The position numbers and the translations under genes are program-made. Positions 41,414 to 51,023 of a stretch of DNA of 64,000 nt are shown here, in pieces. This stretch comes from Streptomyces marianii (lineage in GTDB: Bacteria > Actinomycetota > Actinomycetes > Streptomycetales > Streptomycetaceae). The first letter of the stretch is position 1. The number at the start of each line of letters is the position of its first letter. Location of the stretch: assembly GCF_005795905.1 (NCBI RefSeq), contig NZ_VAWE01000001.1:7629501-7693500 (forward strand), read 5' to 3'. The notes under the pieces were generated by a model. The model ran no database searches. It was not told the origin of the DNA and saw only the letters and a program-made list of their open reading frames with translations.

Positions 41414-42883
41414 TCATGCGAACCACCTCTGCGGGCTCGGCGCGAGATTGCGCCAGATGTGCTTGGCCTCGAGATACTCGGCCAGGCCGGCCAGGCCGAG
41501 TTCGCGGCCGAACCCGGACTGCTTCATCCCGCCCCACTCCGCCTGCGGGACGTACGGATGGAAGTCGTTGATCCACACCGTGCCGGCCCGCATCCTCGAA
41601 GCCACCCGGTGGGCCCGCGCCGGATCCCCGGTCCAGACGGCTCCCGCGAGCCCGTAGACCGTGTCGTTGGCGAGCGCCACCGCCTCCTCCTCGTCGCGGA
41701 ACCGCTCCACGGTCAGCACCGGGCCGAAGGACTCGTCGCGCACCACGGTCATGTCCGGGGTGCACTCGTCCAGCACCGTCGGGAGGTGGTAGAAGCCGTC
41801 GGCGAGCTCCGGGTCCTCCGGTCGGGAGCCGCCGCAGCGCAGGACCGCGCCCTCGGCGACACCGGCCGCGACGTACGCCTCGATCTTCTCCAGATGCCCG
41901 GCGGAGATCAGAGGGCCCGCGCGGGCGTCGTCGTCGAAGGGCCCGCCGAGCCTGATGGACTCCGCCTGCTTGACGAGCTCCGCCACGAACGCGTCGTGCA
42001 GATCCTCCTGCACCAGTAGACGTGCCCCGGCCGAGCAGACCTGGCCGGAGTGCAGGAAGACGGCCGTCGCCGCGTAGTCCACCGCCGCCTCGAACTCCGC
42101 GTCCGAGAACACCACGTTCGGGTTCTTGCCGCCGAGTTCGAGCGCCACCTTCTTCACCGTCGGCGCGGCGGCCGCCATGATGCGGCGGCCGGTGACCAGG
42201 CCGCCCGTGAACGACACCATGTCCACCCTGGGGTCCTCGGTCAGCGGAGCCCCGACGGCACCGCCCGCGCCCAGCACCAGGTTGGCGGCGCCGTCGGGCA
42301 GCCCCGCCTCGGTGAGCAGCCGCATCAGCATCACCGCGGTGTGCGGGGTCAGTTCACTCGGCTTCAGGACGAACGTGTTGCCGGCGCCGAGGGCCGGGGC
42401 GACCTTCCACGACGTCTGGAGCAGCGGGTAGTTCCACGGAGTGATCAGCGAGCAGACCCCGACGGGCTCGTGGACGACCCGGCTGTCCACGTCCGGCAGT
42501 CCGGCGTCGACGACCCGGTCGTGGCCGCCCGCCGCCACGAGATGACCGAACCAGCGGAAGCACTTGGCGATGTCGTCCATGTCGTACGCGCTCTCCACCA
42601 GCCGCTTGCCCGTGTCCAGCGACTCGGCGCGGGCGAGTTCGGCCTTGTCGCGCTCCAGCAGGGCGGCGGTGCGCAGCAGCAGTTCGCCGCGTTCGACGGC
42701 CGGGGTCCGGGGCCAGGGCCCGCTGTCGTAAGCGTCCCGGGCGGCGGCAACGGCGGCGGAGACGTCCTCCGGTCCCGCCTCGTCGACGGTCGCCACCAGT
42801 GTGCCGTCGGCCGGACAGCGGATCTCCCGCTTCCGCCCGCCGGCCGCGGCGGTCCAGGTACCGCCGATGAAGAGCTCTGGCAT
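41414..42883 (-). CDS. Betaine-aldehyde dehydrogenase-like aldehyde dehydrogenase
   Basis: 489 aa. ALDH landmarks: cofactor-binding TPWNYPLLQTSWKVAPALGA, catalytic Glu in ALELGGKNPNVVF, nucleophile Cys in SGQVCSAGARLLVQ, DESFGPVLTV, and the closing MKQSGFGRELGLAGL. Oxidises betaine aldehyde to glycine betaine with NAD(P); substrate inferred from the neighbouring GMC oxidase. The ATG at 42883 has GGAGGTGG 6 bases upstream. The 249 bp separating it from the GMC gene hold no gene. Confidence 0.9.
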   Translation of the reverse strand: MPELFIGGTWTAAAGGRKREIRCPADGTLVATVDEAGPEDVSAAVAAARDAYDSGPWPRTPAVERGELLLRTAALLERDKAELARAESLDTGKRLVESAYDMDDIAKCFRWFGHLVAAGGHDRVVDAGLPDVDSRVVHEPVGVCSLITPWNYPLLQTSWKVAPALGAGNTFVLKPSELTPHTAVMLMRLLTEAGLPDGAANLVLGAGGAVGAPLTEDPRVDMVSFTGGLVTGRRIMAAAAPTVKKVALELGGKNPNVVFSDAEFEAAVDYAATAVFLHSGQVCSAGARLLVQEDLHDAFVAELVKQAESIRLGGPFDDDARAGPLISAGHLEKIEAYVAAGVAEGAVLRCGGSRPEDPELADGFYHLPTVLDECTPDMTVVRDESFGPVLTVERFRDEEEAVALANDTVYGLAGAVWTGDPARAHRVASRMRAGTVWINDFHPYVPQAEWGGMKQSGFGRELGLAGLAEYLEAKHIWRNLAPSPQRWFA

Positions 42884-43142
42884 GTGGGGCCACCTCCGGG
42901 TTCGGACGGGCGGGCGTACCGGAGCGCTTTCCGAGTCGTGCGGTTCTTCGCGTTTCTTCTGCTTCGAGGCTAGAGAGCCCGGGCCCGCTCTGCACCGCGA
43001 GCGTGCCCGGCGCCCGGAAGCCGCCACGCCGGGTGCCCGCACGGCCACCCAGGGTGTGCGCGCCCAGGGGCTCGTCCGTGCTCCGCCGTGTGTCCTTCCC
43101 GGTGTCCGTTCGCCGTGCGGGCCCGCCCGCCCAAGATCGGCG
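42884..43142. other. Divergent intergenic region
   Basis: No gene on either strand. It contains the betB-like promoter (leftward) and, at its right end, the damage-type promoter of the SWIM/vWA/MoxR cassette. Confidence 0.4.
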
Positions 43143-43165
43143 TTGTCAGTGGGCGCCGCTAGGTT
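43143..43165 (+). promoter_or_regulatory. RecA-NDp (PafBC-type) DNA-damage promoter
   Basis: TTGTCAGTG (43143-43151), 8 bases, then TAGGTT (43160-43165). This matches the consensus tTGTCRgtg-N8-TAnnnT defined for the LexA-independent damage promoters of mycobacteria, which are activated by PafBC. It lies 60-70 bp before the first gene of the SWIM/vWA/MoxR cassette, the usual promoter distance. The match is seen directly; damage induction is inferred. Confidence 0.75.
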
Positions 43166-43233
43166 CAGTCGTGTCCCGCCGGCCTCACTCTTCCGGCAGG
43201 GACTTCCCGTGCTGTGCGAAGGAGATGGGTGCG

Positions 43234-43737
43234 TTGTCCGACTGGGAGAAGCGGAGCGCGGCGCGCTTGGTGGCGCCCGCGCGACCGCGAAAGCTCGCCA
43301 AGGTCCCGTTCGTCGAGCTGGCTGACGGACGTCTGCAGGGCGTGGTGTCCAGCGGCTCGGACATCGAGCGGGTCTATGTGTCGTCGGTCGAGGCGGGCAC
43401 GTACGCGTTCGCCTGCAGCACGAACAACAACCGGCCCTGCGGCGGTGCGCGCGGCTCGTACTGCAACCACATCCGGGCCCTGGTCGGCGAAGCCGTGCTG
43501 CAGTACGGTGCCGAGCGCGTCGCCCGATGGCTGCGGGTCGACACGGGAGACGAGGAACCGACGGCGGCCGGCGTCACCGCCGCCATGGCCGCCACCCGCC
43601 CCGCGCAGGCGGAGGCGAAGACCGCCGCTCCCGTGTTCAGCCGGTTCCTGCGCCACCTGGCCTACCTCGAACTGACCCCCGACACGGTGCCGTTGCCCGA
43701 GATGCAGTGGTTCCCGCAGGCCAGGGCGGTGGCGTGA
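43234..43737 (+). CDS. SWIM zinc-finger protein (YehQ N-terminal-like)
   Basis: 167 aa. The SWIM signature is visible in the middle: FACSTNNNRPCGGARGSYCN HIRALVGE, that is Cys...Cys...Cys-x-His. SWIM domains bind zinc and take part in DNA or protein contacts. The start is drawn at a TTG (43234) 9 bases after AAGGAG; an ATG at 43225 directly abuts that site and is the alternative. In E. coli YehQ a SWIM domain and a larger C-terminal part are one protein; here the next gene, overlapping by one base (TGATG), may be the second half. First gene of the five-gene cassette. Confidence 0.85.
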   Translation: MSDWEKRSAARLVAPARPRKLAKVPFVELADGRLQGVVSSGSDIERVYVSSVEAGTYAFACSTNNNRPCGGARGSYCNHIRALVGEAVLQYGAERVARWLRVDTGDEEPTAAGVTAAMAATRPAQAEAKTAAPVFSRFLRHLAYLELTPDTVPLPEMQWFPQARAVA

Positions 43738-45125
43738 TGCGCACCGCCCTGCTCACCGATCCGGTCGACGGGCTCGACGAGGCCCTGGCCGCCGTGGACG
43801 CCTTCGACCGTGCTCTCGTCGGCGGACTCCACCGTCCCCAACCCGCCCAGGCCGGCGGGCTGGCCGAACTCGCCGACGCCGTGGCGGGCACGCCGCTGGC
43901 CTCCCGGGCCGCCGAGGCGGCCGGGAAGGCGGCGGAAGGGGCCGCCGGCGAAGACCACTTCGTCGCCCTGGCCGCCGCGCGCACGGCGCTGCTCGGCTCC
44001 GTCCACGACGCGCTCGTCGCCCGGGTCGACGAGGCGACCGGCCGTTCGCGCCTCGAGGAGACCGCGCCCCCGCCCGCCCAGCGCCCTGCGGCGAACCCGT
44101 CGGCCGCCGCCCGCTCCTGGCTCTGCGACGTGGCCCGCGCCGGATGGCAGGGCATCGACCACGAACTGGTCTCCGGGGCCGCCCAGGTGGTCTCCGCGAT
44201 GCTCCCCGACCCGGCACTGCGCCGGCCCGCGACGCTCCTGGACGGCTTCGCCGCCGAGCTCGCCGCCTCCTGCCCGGGGGCGACGCTCGAACGCGTCCCC
44301 GTGCGCCGCTGGGCCGACCTCTGGTCGCGGGCGATGCTGCTGACGCTGCCCGGTGCGGCCGAGGTGGCCACGCCCGGTACGGCCACCGGCAGGCTGCTGC
44401 CGCTCGGCGTCGACGTCCACGAGCACGCGACCGCCGCGCAGGCCCAGGTCCACGCGGTGTTCGAGCCCGCGGACGGCACTGCGCCCCGGCTGGTGCGCGC
44501 CGCCGTGTCCGCGCCGAAACCGGACACGGTCGTGGGGGCGGGCGTCTGGCAGCTGCTCCGTCCGCACATGGCGCTGCTGGCGGCCGTGAGCGAAGGGAGC
44601 TCGATGGATCTGTCCGGTATGCCGATCACTGCGGAGGGCGACCTGATCTGGGACGACGAGCGAGCGCGCCCCGGTGGGCCCGCCGATGCCCTCGCCACCG
44701 CCCGTGTCGCCCTGGCCGCGGCCGCGGCCACGGCGGCCGCACCGCTGGACCGCCACCCGGCGCGTATCGCCGAGCCGGTGTTCCTGGAGGGCTACACCGT
44801 ACGCAAGGACGGCGGCGTACTGCTGTTCGAGGTCGCCGGGCATCCCGTGGTCGTCGACGCCTGCCGCCTTCCGGCCGCGGGCCCGCTGACGCCGGAGGCC
44901 GTCGAGGTGTCGGGCGCGTGCATCGGGCTGCTCCGTTGGGACGCCGGGGTGTTCAGCGTCCAGCCGCTCGCCGTCGAGACGACCGTGCGGAAGAGGACCG
45001 TGGCGGTGCACGGCGGGGCCTGGGCCGGCGGCACGACCGACAAGGCCGGCCTCAGGGCGGAGAAGGCCGCCACCGACGCCGTGAAGGTGCTGCGCGAGCG
45101 GGCGGGGAGGCTGCTGCGGAAATGA
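43737..45125 (+). CDS. Uncharacterised protein of the SWIM-vWA-MoxR cassette
   Basis: 462 aa, Ala-rich, soluble, no signal peptide. The first ~200 residues are helical; the rest has beta-rich stretches (RLLPLGVDVHEHATAAQAQV, ITAEGDLIWDDERA, EPVFLEGYTVRKDGGVLLFEV). I do not recognise a named domain. Its place directly after and overlapping the SWIM gene and before the vWA gene suggests it equals the C-terminal part of YehQ-like proteins in other bacteria. The overlap at both ends (TGATG, ATGA) indicates tight co-translation. Confidence 0.85.
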   Translation: MRTALLTDPVDGLDEALAAVDAFDRALVGGLHRPQPAQAGGLAELADAVAGTPLASRAAEAAGKAAEGAAGEDHFVALAAARTALLGSVHDALVARVDEATGRSRLEETAPPPAQRPAANPSAAARSWLCDVARAGWQGIDHELVSGAAQVVSAMLPDPALRRPATLLDGFAAELAASCPGATLERVPVRRWADLWSRAMLLTLPGAAEVATPGTATGRLLPLGVDVHEHATAAQAQVHAVFEPADGTAPRLVRAAVSAPKPDTVVGAGVWQLLRPHMALLAAVSEGSSMDLSGMPITAEGDLIWDDERARPGGPADALATARVALAAAAATAAAPLDRHPARIAEPVFLEGYTVRKDGGVLLFEVAGHPVVVDACRLPAAGPLTPEAVEVSGACIGLLRWDAGVFSVQPLAVETTVRKRTVAVHGGAWAGGTTDKAGLRAEKAATDAVKVLRERAGRLLRK

Positions 45126-46879
45126 CCGAGCAGACGACCGCACCCGAGCACAGGGACCGGCACCCCGAGGCGGACGCCCACGACAACCGCCGCCAGGTCC
45201 TCTACTGGCGGCTCCTCGCCCGCCTCTTCGACCGCGAGGAGCAGACGACCCTGGAGTCGGCGAGCCTCGCCGTCGTCGAGGACATCGGGCTGCCGCCCGC
45301 GCTGCTGGACCCGCAGGCGTCCGTCGACTCCGTCGTGCAGCGACACCCGGAGCTGGCCGCCGAGTTCGACGGGCTGATGGCTCCCCGGCCCGACGGCGGA
45401 ACCGGCCGTGGATCCGTTCACCGGCCCGGTCCCGGCGCCGGGACCGTCGACCGGACCGACGGCGGGTCCGCAGCCGAGCCCGGGCCCCGTTCCGCGGCCT
45501 CGTCCGCACCCGAGCAGGAGGCCCCACCCGCCACCGGCAGCGGTTCCGCGGCGGCCGGGCCCGGAGCCGGCGCCGTACCCGAGGCGGGGTCCCCGGCGGG
45601 ATCCGGATCCGGTCGCGCACCCGTGGCAGGGCTCGGTACCGGTTCCGAATCCCCGGCGGCCGGGACCGTCGCGGCACCCGCAGCCGAGCCCGGGGCCGTA
45701 CCCGAGGCGGACGACGCCGACGGGGCGGACGGACGCGACCGCGCCGCCGAAGTGCGCCGCGCCGCACTGGTGTCGAAGGTGCTGCTCAACGTCTTCGCTT
45801 CCGGATCCGGCACGGTCACCGCCGGGCAGCTCTCGCGCTGGCAGTCCGACGCGGGCTGGCTGGAGCGTGCGCTCGGCTGCCGGCCCGGTGAACTGCGCGG
45901 CGGCCGGACCGGCGGCGGCGCGGCCGGCCGGGGCGTCGGTCCCATCGGCACCCGTGGCGGTGGGGCGCCCGACCTCAGCAGGCTCGTCCCGGCGATCGGC
46001 CCGGAACTCGGCGCCATCGAGGCAGACCTCGTGCGGCGCATGCATCTGCGCGAGGTCCTCGCCGATCCCCGGCTCGCCTCGCAGCTCACCCCGAGCATGT
46101 CGCTGATCGAGCAGCTGCTGCGTGACAAGAACAACCTCTCCGGTGTGGCGCTGGCCAATGCCAAGGCCCTGATCCGCCGCTTCGTCGACGAGGTCGCCGA
46201 GGTGCTGCGGACCCAGGTGGAGAAGGCCACGGTCGGTGCCCTGGACCGCTCCGTGCCGCCGAAGCGCGTCTTCCGCAACCTGGACCTCGACCGCACGATC
46301 TGGAAGAACCTCACCAACTGGAGCCCGGAGGAGGAGCGGTTGTACGTCGACCGCCTCTACTACCGGCACACCGCGCGCAAGACGACGCCGCAGCGGCTCG
46401 TCGTGGTCGTGGACCAGTCCGGCTCCATGGTCGACTCGATGGTCAACTGCACCATCCTCGCCTCGATCTTCACCGGGCTGCCGAAGGTGGACGTCCATCT
46501 GATCGCCTACGACACCCAGGCCCTCGACCTCACCCCCTGGGTGCACGACCCCTTCGAGACCCTGCTGCGCACCAACCTCGGCGGTGGTACGGACGGAACG
46601 GTCGCCATGGCGCTGGCACAGCCGAAGATCGCCGAACCCCGCAACACCGTCGTGGTGTGGATCTCGGACTTCTACGAGTGGCGGGGCGAGCAGCTCTTCG
46701 AGTCCATGGCCGCCATCCATCGGTCGGGGGCCAAGTTCATTCCCGTCGGTTCGGTGACCAGCTCCGGCCGCGGAAGCGTCAACCCCTGGTTCCGGGAGCG
46801 CTTCAAGGACCTCGGCACACCGGTCATATCCGGTCACATACGCAAGCTCGTCCACGAACTCAAGACGTTCCTCGCCTGA
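45122..46879 (+). CDS. von Willebrand factor A domain protein (YehP-like)
   Basis: 585 aa. N-terminal helical segment (1-85), a ~120-residue Gly/Ala/Pro/Ser-rich linker (about 88-205), a second helical part, then the vWA domain (about 415-580) with an intact MIDAS: VVVDQSGSM (Asp-x-Ser-x-Ser), the Thr in GGGTDGTVAMAL and the Asp in WISDFYEW. vWA proteins of this type pair with MoxR ATPases in the manner of magnesium or cobalt chelatase subunits. The linker is longer than in E. coli YehP (about 380 aa). ATGA overlap with the previous gene. A 227-bp gap with tandem repeats separates it from the MoxR gene. Confidence 0.92.
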   Translation: MTEQTTAPEHRDRHPEADAHDNRRQVLYWRLLARLFDREEQTTLESASLAVVEDIGLPPALLDPQASVDSVVQRHPELAAEFDGLMAPRPDGGTGRGSVHRPGPGAGTVDRTDGGSAAEPGPRSAASSAPEQEAPPATGSGSAAAGPGAGAVPEAGSPAGSGSGRAPVAGLGTGSESPAAGTVAAPAAEPGAVPEADDADGADGRDRAAEVRRAALVSKVLLNVFASGSGTVTAGQLSRWQSDAGWLERALGCRPGELRGGRTGGGAAGRGVGPIGTRGGGAPDLSRLVPAIGPELGAIEADLVRRMHLREVLADPRLASQLTPSMSLIEQLLRDKNNLSGVALANAKALIRRFVDEVAEVLRTQVEKATVGALDRSVPPKRVFRNLDLDRTIWKNLTNWSPEEERLYVDRLYYRHTARKTTPQRLVVVVDQSGSMVDSMVNCTILASIFTGLPKVDVHLIAYDTQALDLTPWVHDPFETLLRTNLGGGTDGTVAMALAQPKIAEPRNTVVVWISDFYEWRGEQLFESMAAIHRSGAKFIPVGSVTSSGRGSVNPWFRERFKDLGTPVISGHIRKLVHELKTFLA

Positions 46880-47024
46880 GGGCAGCCCCGCCCCGTCCCG
46901 ACGAGAGGCGCGCCGGCAACCGCCCCGCAGCCGTCAGTCTCCCCTCGCGGGCCGTGCCCCCAACCGGCCGCGGCGTCCTCCGCCGGGGCACCTCGGCCAC
47001 GCCGACCTCTCCTCGGGCTGACCC

Positions 47025-47088
47025 GTCTACACGCTCCCACGTCTACACGCTCCCACGTCTACACGCTCCCACGTCTACACGCTCCCAC
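47025..47088. repeat. Exact 4 x 16-bp tandem repeat before the MoxR gene
   Basis: Four perfect copies of GTCTACACGCTCCCAC at 47025, 47041, 47057 and 47073, ending 18 bp before the MoxR ATG (47107). Perfect identity makes it a likely variable-number repeat. It would be in the 5' leader and could change promoter spacing or mRNA folding. The preceding 145 bp (46880-47024) hold nothing else I can name. Confidence 0.95.
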
Positions 47089-47106
47089 GTTCAGAAAGGC
47101 CCTGAC

Positions 47107-48219
47107 ATGTCCGAACTGCTGCGCGCCCCCGCCGAGATCAAGTACGCCGAGGAACTCGACTGGCTGGAGTCGATCGACGACAGCCCCAAGCCCTTCTCCT
47201 GGCGGCTCTCCCCGAGGATGGTCCGGCTGTTCGTCCTGGGGGCGGAGCGCTCCGACGGTCTCGACAGGGACATCTCCCAGAAGTGGTTCGGCGACCGCAG
47301 CTTCGTCGAACGTGCCGTCGTGACCCTGGCCTCCGACCGCGGCCTGCTGCTCATAGGCGATCCCGGCACCGGAAAGAGCTGGCTCGCCGAACTGCTGTCC
47401 GCGGCGATCTGCCGCAACTCCACCCTGGTGGTTCAGGGCACGGCCGGCACCACCGAGGACCACATCAAGTACTCGTGGAACGTGTCCATGGTCATCGCCA
47501 AGGGCCAGTCCCGCGAGTCGATGATTCCCTCGCCGATCATGACCGCGATGGAGACCGGTGCGATCGGCCGCTTCGAGGAGCTCACCCGCTCCACCAGCGA
47601 CGTCCAGGACGCCCTGATCTCCATCCTGTCGGAGAAGTACGTCTCGGTCCCCGAGCTGGACAGCGACGGCATCGTCTTCGCCAAGCCCGGCTTCTCCGTC
47701 ATCGCCACCGCCAACAGCCGTGACCGGGGCGTCAACGACCTGTCCTCGGCGCTCAAGCGGCGTTTCAACTTCGTGCGCATCCCGGTGGTGACGAACAAGA
47801 AGAGCGAGGCGGAGATCGTCCGCTTCCGCACCGAGGAACTGCTGCGCCGCCACCAGATCGAACTGGACGTACCGCCGACGCTGCTGGACGTGCTGTTGCA
47901 GAGCTTCGCCGACCTGCGCGCCTCCTCGGCTTCGGCCGGCAGCGACGACGAGAAGCTGGAGTCCGCGCTGTCGACGGCCGAGCAGATCGGCGTGCTGGAG
48001 GACGCGATCCTGCACAGCAACTTCTTCGGCGAGCGCGCGCTGACCGCCCACACCCTCGCCTCCTCCCTCGTCGGGTCGCTGGCCCGGCGCGAGCCCGAGG
48101 ACCTGGCCATCCTCAACAAGTATCTGCACGGCGTCGTCGAGCCGCGCAGCAAGGAGGAGGGCGGCTCCTGGCCGGAGTTCCTGGAGGGCGGCCGCGACGC
48201 GATCGCCACCCTGTCATGA
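47107..48219 (+). CDS. MoxR-family AAA+ ATPase (YehL-like)
   Basis: 370 aa. Walker A GDPGTGKSWLAELL (about residues 83-96), the pre-sensor insert region ATRSTSDVQDALISILSEKYV-like stretch (TSDVQDALISILSEKYVSVP), sensor 1 VIATANSRDRG and the arginine finger region DLSSALKRRFNFVRIP. MoxR ATPases remodel protein complexes together with vWA proteins. The gene is the fourth in the cassette and ends in an ATGA overlap with the DUF5682 gene. Ribosome site AAAGG 8 bases upstream. Confidence 0.95.
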   Translation: MSELLRAPAEIKYAEELDWLESIDDSPKPFSWRLSPRMVRLFVLGAERSDGLDRDISQKWFGDRSFVERAVVTLASDRGLLLIGDPGTGKSWLAELLSAAICRNSTLVVQGTAGTTEDHIKYSWNVSMVIAKGQSRESMIPSPIMTAMETGAIGRFEELTRSTSDVQDALISILSEKYVSVPELDSDGIVFAKPGFSVIATANSRDRGVNDLSSALKRRFNFVRIPVVTNKKSEAEIVRFRTEELLRRHQIELDVPPTLLDVLLQSFADLRASSASAGSDDEKLESALSTAEQIGVLEDAILHSNFFGERALTAHTLASSLVGSLARREPEDLAILNKYLHGVVEPRSKEEGGSWPEFLEGGRDAIATLS

Positions 48220-51023
48220 GCGCCGCCCAGGAAGGGACGTTCACCGAGCTGCGGTCCCAACTGCAGGCAGCGGCGGCGGCCTTCGCCGACGGCCCGGGCG
48301 CGCTGGAGGGCATCCTGCTCGGCATCGTCGACGACGTGGACCGCGCGGTGCGGGAGCCCCTGGAGATCTTCCCGGTCTGCCACCACTCACCCGCCTCGGC
48401 GCTCGCGATGGCGCGGCGGCTGAGGGAGAAGCAGCCGAAGGTGGTGTACCTCGAGCTGTGCGAGGACATGGCCCCGCTCCTCACCGAACTCCGCAACTGC
48501 AGACTCCCGGTCGCGGTGCAGGCGTTCGCCACCGAGGTCGAGGGTTTCCCGGCTGACTGGTCGCCGCTCTCGGTGGTCGCGCCCATCACCGAGGCGTCGG
48601 CCGAGTACCAGGCGATCGCCTACGCACTGGACACCCCGGGTGTTGAACTCGTTCTCGTCGACCGGTCCTCCGACCATGTGTTCCAGTGGGACGCGCGCGG
48701 TGCGGCACCCTCCGAACCCTCCGAACCGTCCGGTCCGGACGCGCCGGCCGACGAGGAGGCCGCCCTGCACGGGGAGGCGGTCGGCGTCGAGATCGGGGAC
48801 CTCCGGCCCCGCTTCGCCGAACTGGAGGAGCATCTGCTGCGCCACGGCCGGGTCCGCCACTGGTCGGAGTGGTGGCACCAGTACGTGGAACTGCCGCTGG
48901 GGGACAGCGACCACGACACCTACCGGCAGGTCATGCTGCTGATCGGCAGTCTGTTCCGCCGCCTCGCTCCGGGTGACCCCCGGCGGGTGGGCGTGGACGA
49001 GGACCGCGAGCGCTACATGTGGACCCGGATGCGCGAGCACCTGGCCGCCACCGGCACGGATCCCGCGGACTGCCTGTACGTCTGCGGTGCGTTCCACGCG
49101 GCCAGCCGTGTGGCCGAGTTCGGCGTGGACGGTGCCGACGGCTTCGAGATCGGGCCCCGGACCGCGACCAGGTGGCAGCACGGTCTGATTCCGTCCAGCC
49201 ATGCCGCGATCGAGGCGCAGTTCGGCCTCGCCGCCGGCTCGGTCTCCATCGCCTCGACGGTGTGGGCGAAGAACGTCAGGCGCACTCGTGTCGAGCCCTT
49301 CCGGCTGGCGGGACAGGCGGGCACGAAGAAGCGGGCGAAGGCGGCGAAAGCCGGCCCGGCAGCCACCGACACGGCGGAGCCCGCCTCCGACAGGCTCTCC
49401 GGATTTCTGCGGCGGCCACCCGTCCTGGACCGGCTCGACGAGGCCGAACTGCTCGACTGGTCGGTCGAGATCGTGCGAGCGGCGCGTCGCAACGGCTATC
49501 TCGCCTCCACCGCCGACGCCATCGCCGTGTTCGAGACGTCGATCCTCCTCGCCGGGATGCGTGACCGCGCCAAGCCCACCCCGTACGACTTCCAGGACGC
49601 GGCCGTCACCTGCATCGAGAAGGACACCGTGCCGGGCCGGCGCGATGTGCGCCGGCTCGTGGAGATCATGATGGGCGGCGACCGGATCGGCCAGGTCGGC
49701 TACGACGCACTGCCGCCCCTGGCGCGCGACGTGCACGACCGGCTCGCGCCGCTTGGGCTGAAGCTCCAGCAGCGCGGGGTGCAGCGGGCGTTGCTCGACA
49801 TCGCCTCCCGACCGGAGCTGGAGAAGTGCTCCGACCTGCTGTGGATGCTGCGGTACCTGATGCCGCAGGGCGCGGCGCGCCCGATCATGGGGGAGCGGCG
49901 GCTCGGTGAGCGCCCCATCCAGGAGTCCTGGGACCTCGCGCTGGGTACCCACCAGCGTGCGCTGATCGAGCTCGGCTACGAGGGAGTCAGTATCGAGCAG
50001 GTGCTGGAGCAGCGGTTGCGGCGCACGGCATACAGCCCTCGGGCCACGACGGCCGTCGTCCTCGAGGCCGTCGAGGACGCGACGCTCCATCTGCGCAGCC
50101 GGCGCCTCGCCGACGAGCTGGGCACCCGCGCCCTGGAGGTGCTGGCCACCGAGCGCAGCGTCGACGGCGCCCCCGAGGTGCTGCGCCGGGTGCGCGGACT
50201 GCTGGCGTACTACCGGACCGGTCAGCCGGTGCTGCCGCCGTGGGTCGAGTCCTTCGTCAAGACGGGGTACGCGCACTACTGCACCCTGCTGCCGACGGCG
50301 TTCACCGACGAGGACGCGACCGTGCGCCAGGTCGCCGCGATGCTCGGGTTCCTGTTCAGCATGGAGGGCCTGGCGCTGTCCCTGGGCTGCGACCGCAGGC
50401 AACTGGAGCTGGCGGTCGCGGCGTCGCACCCCGAGGAGCCGGCGAAGGTCGCGCTGCTCTGGGCGGCGCGGACCCAGCTCGGCAGCCTGTCCCGGGCGGA
50501 GTTGCGGGCACGCTGCGACGAACTCCTCGGCAACCCCTTGGTGGTCCCGGCCTATCCGCGTTACCTCAGCGGGTTCCTCCAGGCGCTGGAGCCGGTCCCC
50601 GCCCTGGCCGACTTCGTCGTGGAGGCGGTGTCCAACGCCTTCGCCCGGCTGCCGGACGCGGTGCTGCTGCCGTGGCTGCCGACCCTCATCGGCACCCTGC
50701 GGTCCGGCGGCGCGGAGCAGGCGCCGCTGCTGATCCGCGAGGCCGGCCGGATCTTTCCCGGGCGGCTCGGGGCCCTCGACTCATGGGTGCCCCCGTGGCG
50801 TGTGGAGCCGGACCCCCGGGCAGAGCCTGCCGCCCTGCCGGGGGGCGCCGGCCGCGGTGTCCCGCTGCTCGCCGCCCACCCCGTCACCTGCGACGCGGTG
50901 GCGGAGCTGCTGGGCTGCGACGGCGGGTGGGAGACGACGGACCCGGGCCCGCGCGGCGCGGTACTCGTCCACGCCCATCCCGGTACGGCGGCGGCGCTGC
51001 AGGCTCTGCTGGCCCCGCCCTGA
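48216..51023 (+). CDS. DUF5682 family protein (YehM-like)
   Basis: 935 aa, the largest component of the cassette. The N-terminal part shows the DUF5682 hallmark FPVCHHSPASALAMARRLRE, VVYLELCEDMAPLLTEL, and YVCGAFHAASRVAEF near residue 285. The C-terminal half is helical and may be repeat-like. The function of DUF5682 is unknown; it is a constant partner of MoxR/vWA pairs. The conserved CHHS and CGAFH residues suggest a catalytic or metal-binding site, which is inference. Last gene of the unit. Confidence 0.9.
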   Translation: MSAAQEGTFTELRSQLQAAAAAFADGPGALEGILLGIVDDVDRAVREPLEIFPVCHHSPASALAMARRLREKQPKVVYLELCEDMAPLLTELRNCRLPVAVQAFATEVEGFPADWSPLSVVAPITEASAEYQAIAYALDTPGVELVLVDRSSDHVFQWDARGAAPSEPSEPSGPDAPADEEAALHGEAVGVEIGDLRPRFAELEEHLLRHGRVRHWSEWWHQYVELPLGDSDHDTYRQVMLLIGSLFRRLAPGDPRRVGVDEDRERYMWTRMREHLAATGTDPADCLYVCGAFHAASRVAEFGVDGADGFEIGPRTATRWQHGLIPSSHAAIEAQFGLAAGSVSIASTVWAKNVRRTRVEPFRLAGQAGTKKRAKAAKAGPAATDTAEPASDRLSGFLRRPPVLDRLDEAELLDWSVEIVRAARRNGYLASTADAIAVFETSILLAGMRDRAKPTPYDFQDAAVTCIEKDTVPGRRDVRRLVEIMMGGDRIGQVGYDALPPLARDVHDRLAPLGLKLQQRGVQRALLDIASRPELEKCSDLLWMLRYLMPQGAARPIMGERRLGERPIQESWDLALGTHQRALIELGYEGVSIEQVLEQRLRRTAYSPRATTAVVLEAVEDATLHLRSRRLADELGTRALEVLATERSVDGAPEVLRRVRGLLAYYRTGQPVLPPWVESFVKTGYAHYCTLLPTAFTDEDATVRQVAAMLGFLFSMEGLALSLGCDRRQLELAVAASHPEEPAKVALLWAARTQLGSLSRAELRARCDELLGNPLVVPAYPRYLSGFLQALEPVPALADFVVEAVSNAFARLPDAVLLPWLPTLIGTLRSGGAEQAPLLIREAGRIFPGRLGALDSWVPPWRVEPDPRAEPAALPGGAGRGVPLLAAHPVTCDAVAELLGCDGGWETTDPGPRGAVLVHAHPGTAAALQALLAPP

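Follow-up and report, generated by a model that had tools for sequence, protein, structure and literature searches.

MoxR-type AAA+ ATPases are encoded beside von Willebrand factor A (vWA) proteins with a metal ion-dependent adhesion site (MIDAS) in the RavA-ViaA, CoxD-CoxE and NorQ-NorD systems, and vWA-MoxR pairs have been proposed to restructure substrate complexes (PMC7159879). YehL was described as a separate MoxR subfamily (PMC3893208). In the literature searched, which comprised titles, abstracts and passages and is cited here to that extent, no function was found for the YehL-type MoxR-vWA systems of E. coli and actinobacteria. A cassette of this type was located in Streptomyces marianii (assembly GCF_005795905.1) within a 64,000-nucleotide stretch of contig NZ_VAWE01000001.1 (positions 7,629,501 to 7,693,500), hereafter the window. 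Five packed genes, all on the + strand, spanned 43225-51023 of the window in a genome of 9.0 Mb and encoded, in order, a SWIM-like zinc protein, a protein called P2, a CoxE-type vWA protein, a YehL-type MoxR ATPase and a divergent DUF5682 (YehM-type) protein, P0005. The MoxR ATPase beside a MIDAS vWA protein is common to RavA-ViaA, CoxD-CoxE, NorQ-NorD and the cassette, but the latter adds DUF5682, zinc proteins and a promoter of the DNA-damage type. With E. coli yehI-yehL-yehM-yehP-yehQ the cassette shared homologous MoxR, vWA and DUF5682 proteins; identity was 41% between MoxR and YehL (340 aa, E 2e-84), 30% between the vWA protein and YehP (311 aa) and 29% between P0005 and YehM (104 aa). 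However, the SWIM-like protein and P2 replace YehQ, a DUF4132 protein is missing, and the five genes stand behind a RecA-NDp promoter. On balance, we favor the reading that the cassette belongs, as an accessory member, to a class of ATP-driven remodellers that Streptomyces have wired into their DNA-damage regulon.

The putative promoter, of RecA-NDp/PafBC type, reads TTGTCAGTG-N8-TAGGTT on the + strand at 43143-43165 (motif sequence, TTGTCAGTGGGCGCCGCTAGGTT); this assignment draws on the sequence itself, its conservation and the same motif at recA. The ATG at 43225 begins 59 bp past the motif and is preceded by GAAGGAG. The original prediction had placed a promoter of this type here, and the motif was found exactly at that position with its half-sites 8 bp apart. 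RecA-NDp has been named as the PafBC promoter (PMC6789036, PMC8223512), and the recA promoter of S. rimosus was given as TTGTCAGTGGC-N6-TAGggT, with variants in S. coelicolor and S. avermitilis (PMC2375139). To score other loci, mismatches to the pattern TTGTCRGTG-N8-TAnnnT were counted. Ninety-two cassette loci were taken (12 relatives and 80 named loci, the source window not among them); among the best 80 named loci listed for the MoxR, most were from Streptomyces and eight from Pseudonocardiaceae. Removal of three duplicates, and of four loci whose contig lacked the SWIM gene, left 85 distinct upstream regions. The motif was exact in 74 of these, with one mismatch in six, two in three, three in one and four in one. 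The original prediction had hinged on the motif not being absent from orthologous cassettes, and it was present within one mismatch in 80/85. All motifs with up to two mismatches lay on the coding strand. Of the 80 with at most one mismatch, 76 sat 60-110 bp ahead of the start. By chance, 0.24 hits were expected over all 85 upstream regions, as estimated from the rest of these loci, where 1.7 Mb contained 12 places within one mismatch; shuffled upstream regions gave 0-2 of 85 within one mismatch. With exact half-sites, a spacer of 8 was seen in 74/85, and spacers of 3-7 or 9-13 in none. The 85 cassettes are kin, so these counts are not independent; the spacer bases and the neighbors change, which argues for selection on the motif. 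Gene order was identical in 88 of the 92 loci, namely those in which the contig reached the first gene, and the most frequent flanking gene family occurred at 8/85 loci (simple gene caller). The flanking genes are thus unconserved, indicating that the promoter and the five genes behave as a unit in changing surroundings.

The same motif was found before repair genes of the genome. Within one mismatch, the pattern occurred at 79 places in 9.0 Mb, compared with 5 for the reversed pattern, and the background for such a hit in 400 bp on one strand was ~0.0018. When the downstream proteins of 11 of 30 fetched motif loci were scanned with Pfam, the motif preceded RecA, UvrB, DnaX (gamma/tau), UDG (ung), HNH_2 and RecD2 helix-hairpin (HHH) proteins, and also a DUF4253 protein, an ABC transporter, an AAA protein and two proteins without a family. 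An exact motif stood 30 bp ahead of the recA start in all four Streptomyces examined. Six other AAA_3/MoxR-type loci of the genome had no motif within two mismatches over ~3.3 kb each. The cassette resembles the PafBC/RecA-NDp regulon in carrying TTGTCRGTG-N8-TAnnnT, which is also found ahead of the genome's recA, uvrB, dnaX and ung genes, but YehL-type MoxR systems were not named as regulon members in the literature searched. Nor did the titles, abstract openings and passages covered link YehL-type systems to the damage response; the gene list in the additional file of PMC2375139 may include some of their genes. SCO6735 of S. coelicolor, which has a RecA-NDp promoter, rose fivefold after UV (PMC5087735). 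In mycobacteria, PafBC activated by single-stranded DNA (ssDNA) works by sigma adaptation (PMC11804915), and for M. smegmatis, MoxR1/2 and a von Willebrand protein are tabulated as reduced when pafBC is deleted (PMC5656591).

A phylum search with the cassette MoxR returned further MoxR genes at ~45% identity, and three sister YehL-type systems, here called A, C and D, carried the motif as well. System A consists of SWIM and DUF5691 genes divergent from MoxR, DUF5682 and vWA genes; the whole set was seen in three genomes. Its MoxR was present in 56/61 Streptomyces genomes, including the source genome (G000:C1:3281206-3282315). Among the best 30 loci, the SWIM gene lay beside the motif in every case (27 exact, 3 with one mismatch). 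The SWIM start was 6-7 bp past the motif in 27, which is the geometry of recA, and ~40 bp past it by alignment in the other 3. A one-mismatch motif also faced MoxR in 29/30. In these MoxR-facing copies (L200-L228), CA replaced TA at -10 in all 29 carriers and the spacer was strongly kept. The system A of the source genome (L179:10950-10972; G000:C1:3282949) had a one-mismatch motif 7 bp before the SWIM ATG.

System C is laid out as a DUF4132 protein and a 1683-aa protein followed by MoxR, DUF5682 and vWA. A DUF4132 match in 22/61 genomes gave 23 loci, 19 of them with MoxR, DUF5682 and vWA downstream. Within 120 bp upstream, these 19 had 12 exact motifs, six with one mismatch and one with two, or 18/19 within one mismatch. 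The remaining four were two loci on contigs ending early (one exact, one with two mismatches), a second DUF4132 gene beside a system C (one mismatch) and a locus without MoxR downstream (two mismatches). System D is an operon that, unlike the window cassette, retains the E. coli order yehI-L-M-P-Q; its MoxR was 64% identical to YehL and its vWA protein 58% identical to YehP. A yehI-like gene was found in 9/101 genomes and the full set in five, all five with an exact motif. The other four comprised a locus at a contig end (exact), two lacking MoxR within 9 kb (one exact, one with two mismatches) and one that had MoxR together with part of DUF5682 but in which neither vWA nor YehQ nor the motif was found. 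The motif-less yehI-like locus (L332, L361; G542) is thus the same one in which vWA and YehQ were not found, and is perhaps a decaying copy. A domain scan of the first protein in one system D showed WGR and DUF4132 domains. WGR domains bind DNA breaks in PARPs. In E. coli, yehF (L117:475-1299), upstream of yehI, also encodes a WGR domain (Pfam, 1.2e-16), as does the first system D gene; no exact CTGTN8ACAG box occurred in 24 kb around the yeh genes.

Two WYL genes lay ~1 kb apart in the S. marianii genome. The product of the first was a PafB homologue matching 7p5x, 9fnd and 6sj9 with E down to 1.8e-55, and an adjoining gene was read by eye as PafA-like. The LexA (SOS) box is GAACN4GTTC; none was present in window 42700-43300, and the box was found upstream of 1/85 cassettes, 0/30 system A loci and 0/23 DUF4132 regions. 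The damage reading is strengthened by the PafB homologue, the near absence of LexA boxes and three more YehL-type systems with the same promoter. The original prediction had tied the cassette to the DNA-damage response, and the motif shared with recA, uvrB, dnaX and ung supports this link at the level of sequence. The motif stood at recA, uvrB, dnaX and ung in one Streptomyces and at MoxR systems in many. This bears on the open question of a LexA-independent damage response of PafBC type in Streptomyces, on which PMC9380542 reports a negative initial search for the mycobacterial motif in S. venezuelae. Four Streptomyces systems sharing one predicted damage promoter provide a concrete, testable context for the YehL family, and the same switch on related clusters points to a role in surviving DNA damage.

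The five cassette proteins were scanned with Pfam at E 0.1. The vWA protein (45122-46879, + strand) matched VWA_CoxE at 2.5e-29, and inspection of its sequence found all MIDAS strings (DxSxS/T/D) present as DQSGS 431-435, GGGT 487-490 and SDF 515-517. The MoxR protein (47107-48219, + strand) matched AAA_5 at 6.1e-37; Walker A (84-91), Walker B, sensor-1 and Arg-finger (ALKRRF) strings were intact. No Pfam family was obtained at this threshold for the SWIM-like protein, P2 or P0005. The assignment of P0005 (48216-51023, + strand) to DUF5682 came from close orthologues, some of which carry PF18934 in listings, from NCBI names that call close relatives DUF5682, and from its family profile, which aligned at E 3e-6 with a DUF5682 protein encoded in the same genome. 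P0005 retained HHxPxxA (56-62), E80, D149, R264-E265 and CGxxH (290-294); in a 14-row alignment with YehM, residues H56, H57, P59, A62, E80, D149, R264, E265, C290, G291 and H294 were invariant. In the SWIM-like protein (170 aa, 43225-43737, + strand), C64, C72, C80 and H82 were invariant in 18 aligned rows and the CxH end was kept. A low-confidence model of P2 (463 aa, 43734-45125, + strand) suggests a helical N-terminal half followed by tandem OB-like folds at residues ~211-423. The SWIM-like and P2 frames ran together in some relatives as one protein of 642-650 aa.

The favored reading builds on features read from these sequences, namely the composition of the cassette, the intact ATPase and MIDAS strings, the promoter conserved in four systems and PafB in the genome. 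The constant core would be the YehL-type MoxR ATPase, DUF5682 and the CoxE-type vWA protein, with exchangeable and perhaps DNA-binding partners. When DNA is damaged, ssDNA would arise, and PafBC loaded with it would enable the housekeeping RNA polymerase to start from the RecA-NDp promoter; the five cassette genes would then be induced and their products made together. The MoxR ring and the vWA MIDAS, presumably assembled in one complex, may grip and remodel with ATP a putative target complex, and DUF5682 may act as a constant enzymatic or client subunit. Variable partners (the SWIM-like protein with P2, SWIM with DUF5691, or WGR-DUF4132) would direct the machine to its substrate, which probably lies at damaged DNA. 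More tentatively, and with less confidence than for the cassette itself, we propose that the whole YehL class is a dedicated DNA-damage machine whose WGR, SWIM or OB-like partners recruit it to broken DNA or ssDNA, and that it is turned on by PafBC in Streptomyces and has spread as a self-contained promoter-plus-operon cassette.

Several observations weigh against the favored reading. According to PMC9380542, an initial search in S. venezuelae failed to find conservation of the mycobacterial PafBC motif. Five of the 85 cassettes exceeded one mismatch, with two mismatches in two Saccharopolyspora and one Streptantibioticus and with three and four in two members of family f3. A cassette of family f15 had no motif within three mismatches; one of family f6 had it exact. 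The association of system A with the motif also faded outside Streptomyces, where 20 of 22 loci listed for four other families were fetched. Six carried the motif 7-9 bp before the SWIM start (2 exact, 2 with one mismatch, 2 with two) and in one a site with two mismatches lay 54 bp ahead of that start; seven had no motif near the SWIM start, and in six this start could not be placed. In family f87 the motif was present at 0/5 system A loci, and the family's own recA site was three mismatches off in all four cases found. For some motif genes in the S. marianii genome (ABC transporter, DUF4253) no role in repair is known, and the motif can also precede a yehI-like gene that lacks a nearby MoxR gene (G557). 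The DNA-targeting step draws on the WGR domain of system D, a non-canonical SWIM protein and a poor P2 model, and structure models were poor in general, including those of P2 and DUF5682.

The identity of the first gene and of a YehQ counterpart also counted on this side. A canonical SWIM zinc finger is CxCx(n)CxH, and CxC...CxH was found in five system A SWIM proteins and in YehQ. The cassette protein had no CxC and no Pfam SWIM match at E 0.1; because CxC is absent, it is called SWIM-like and not a canonical SWIM protein. Of the five-gene makeup originally proposed, the linkage, the MIDAS-intact vWA protein and MoxR held, DUF5682 was recovered through orthologues, profile and invariant residues, and the SWIM assignment proved atypical. 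The composition had further been equated with E. coli yehL/M/P/Q in another order. Homology to YehL, YehP and YehM and the different order were borne out, but in sequence comparisons YehQ had no significant similarity to the SWIM-like protein or P2, and the match therefore holds for three of the four proteins.

Among other explanations, the best surviving was that MoxR-vWA is a metallo-cofactor or activation chaperone, as in NorQD and CoxDE, which loads or activates a metal-dependent DUF5682 enzyme needed after damage. DUF5682 was the only additional protein observed in each of the four systems, with invariant H, E, D and C residues, and MoxR proteins have been described as maturing dedicated complexes (PMC3893208). 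However, the PDB-sequence profile search returned no credible relative of the DUF5682 protein, neither this search nor the poor model gave an enzymatic fold, and the chaperone leaves the SWIM, WGR and DUF4132 partners unexplained. We regard this explanation as unlikely, though it retains some weight.

A damage-induced conflict or anti-phage system, in which phages or rivals cause the damage that the promoter senses, and an effector is then released by the MoxR-vWA machine, appears slightly less likely again. The cassette was patchy, as mobile defence genes are, with a long match to P0005 in 13/61 genomes (a 14th match covered 101 residues only) and unconserved neighbors. Other MoxR-vWA ternary systems have been proposed as conflict systems (PMC7159879, PMC10910872), and like vWA-MoxR-VMAP and its kin the cassette combines MoxR and vWA with a third constant protein. 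In contrast to those systems, no VMAP, iSTAND, FtsH or beta-propeller part was recognized in the cassette, where Pfam bpMoxR scored below its cut-off only, and no effector domain was found in it; the words SWIM, YehL, DUF5682 and DUF4132 were absent from the main text of PMC7159879. PADLOC returned partial AAA or vWA matches only, the best being mad8 to MoxR at 4e-6, and no defence-system match. Near-universal system A is also unlike a defence island. That the motif is a constitutive promoter or a coincidence, with the cassette unrelated to DNA damage, is very improbable: the motif genes without a known repair role would fit it, but motif counts were far above background at fixed spacing and strand in four systems, the same motif stood at recA, and a RecA-NDp gene has published UV induction.

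Minor features were noted as well. The vWA protein contained a long low-complexity linker at residues ~86-205 (window 45377-45736) made up of 74% G/P/A/S/T, and the vWA proteins of relatives differed in length. Between the vWA and MoxR genes, a gap of 227 bp contained a tandem 16-bp repeat at 47033-47096, with about four copies of GCTCCCACGTCTACAC directly before the MoxR start. At 4/85 loci, including L074, the same strand upstream of the cassette carried sequences that resembled the alkyl-DNA repair proteins Ada and Ogt, as judged by eye without a family search.

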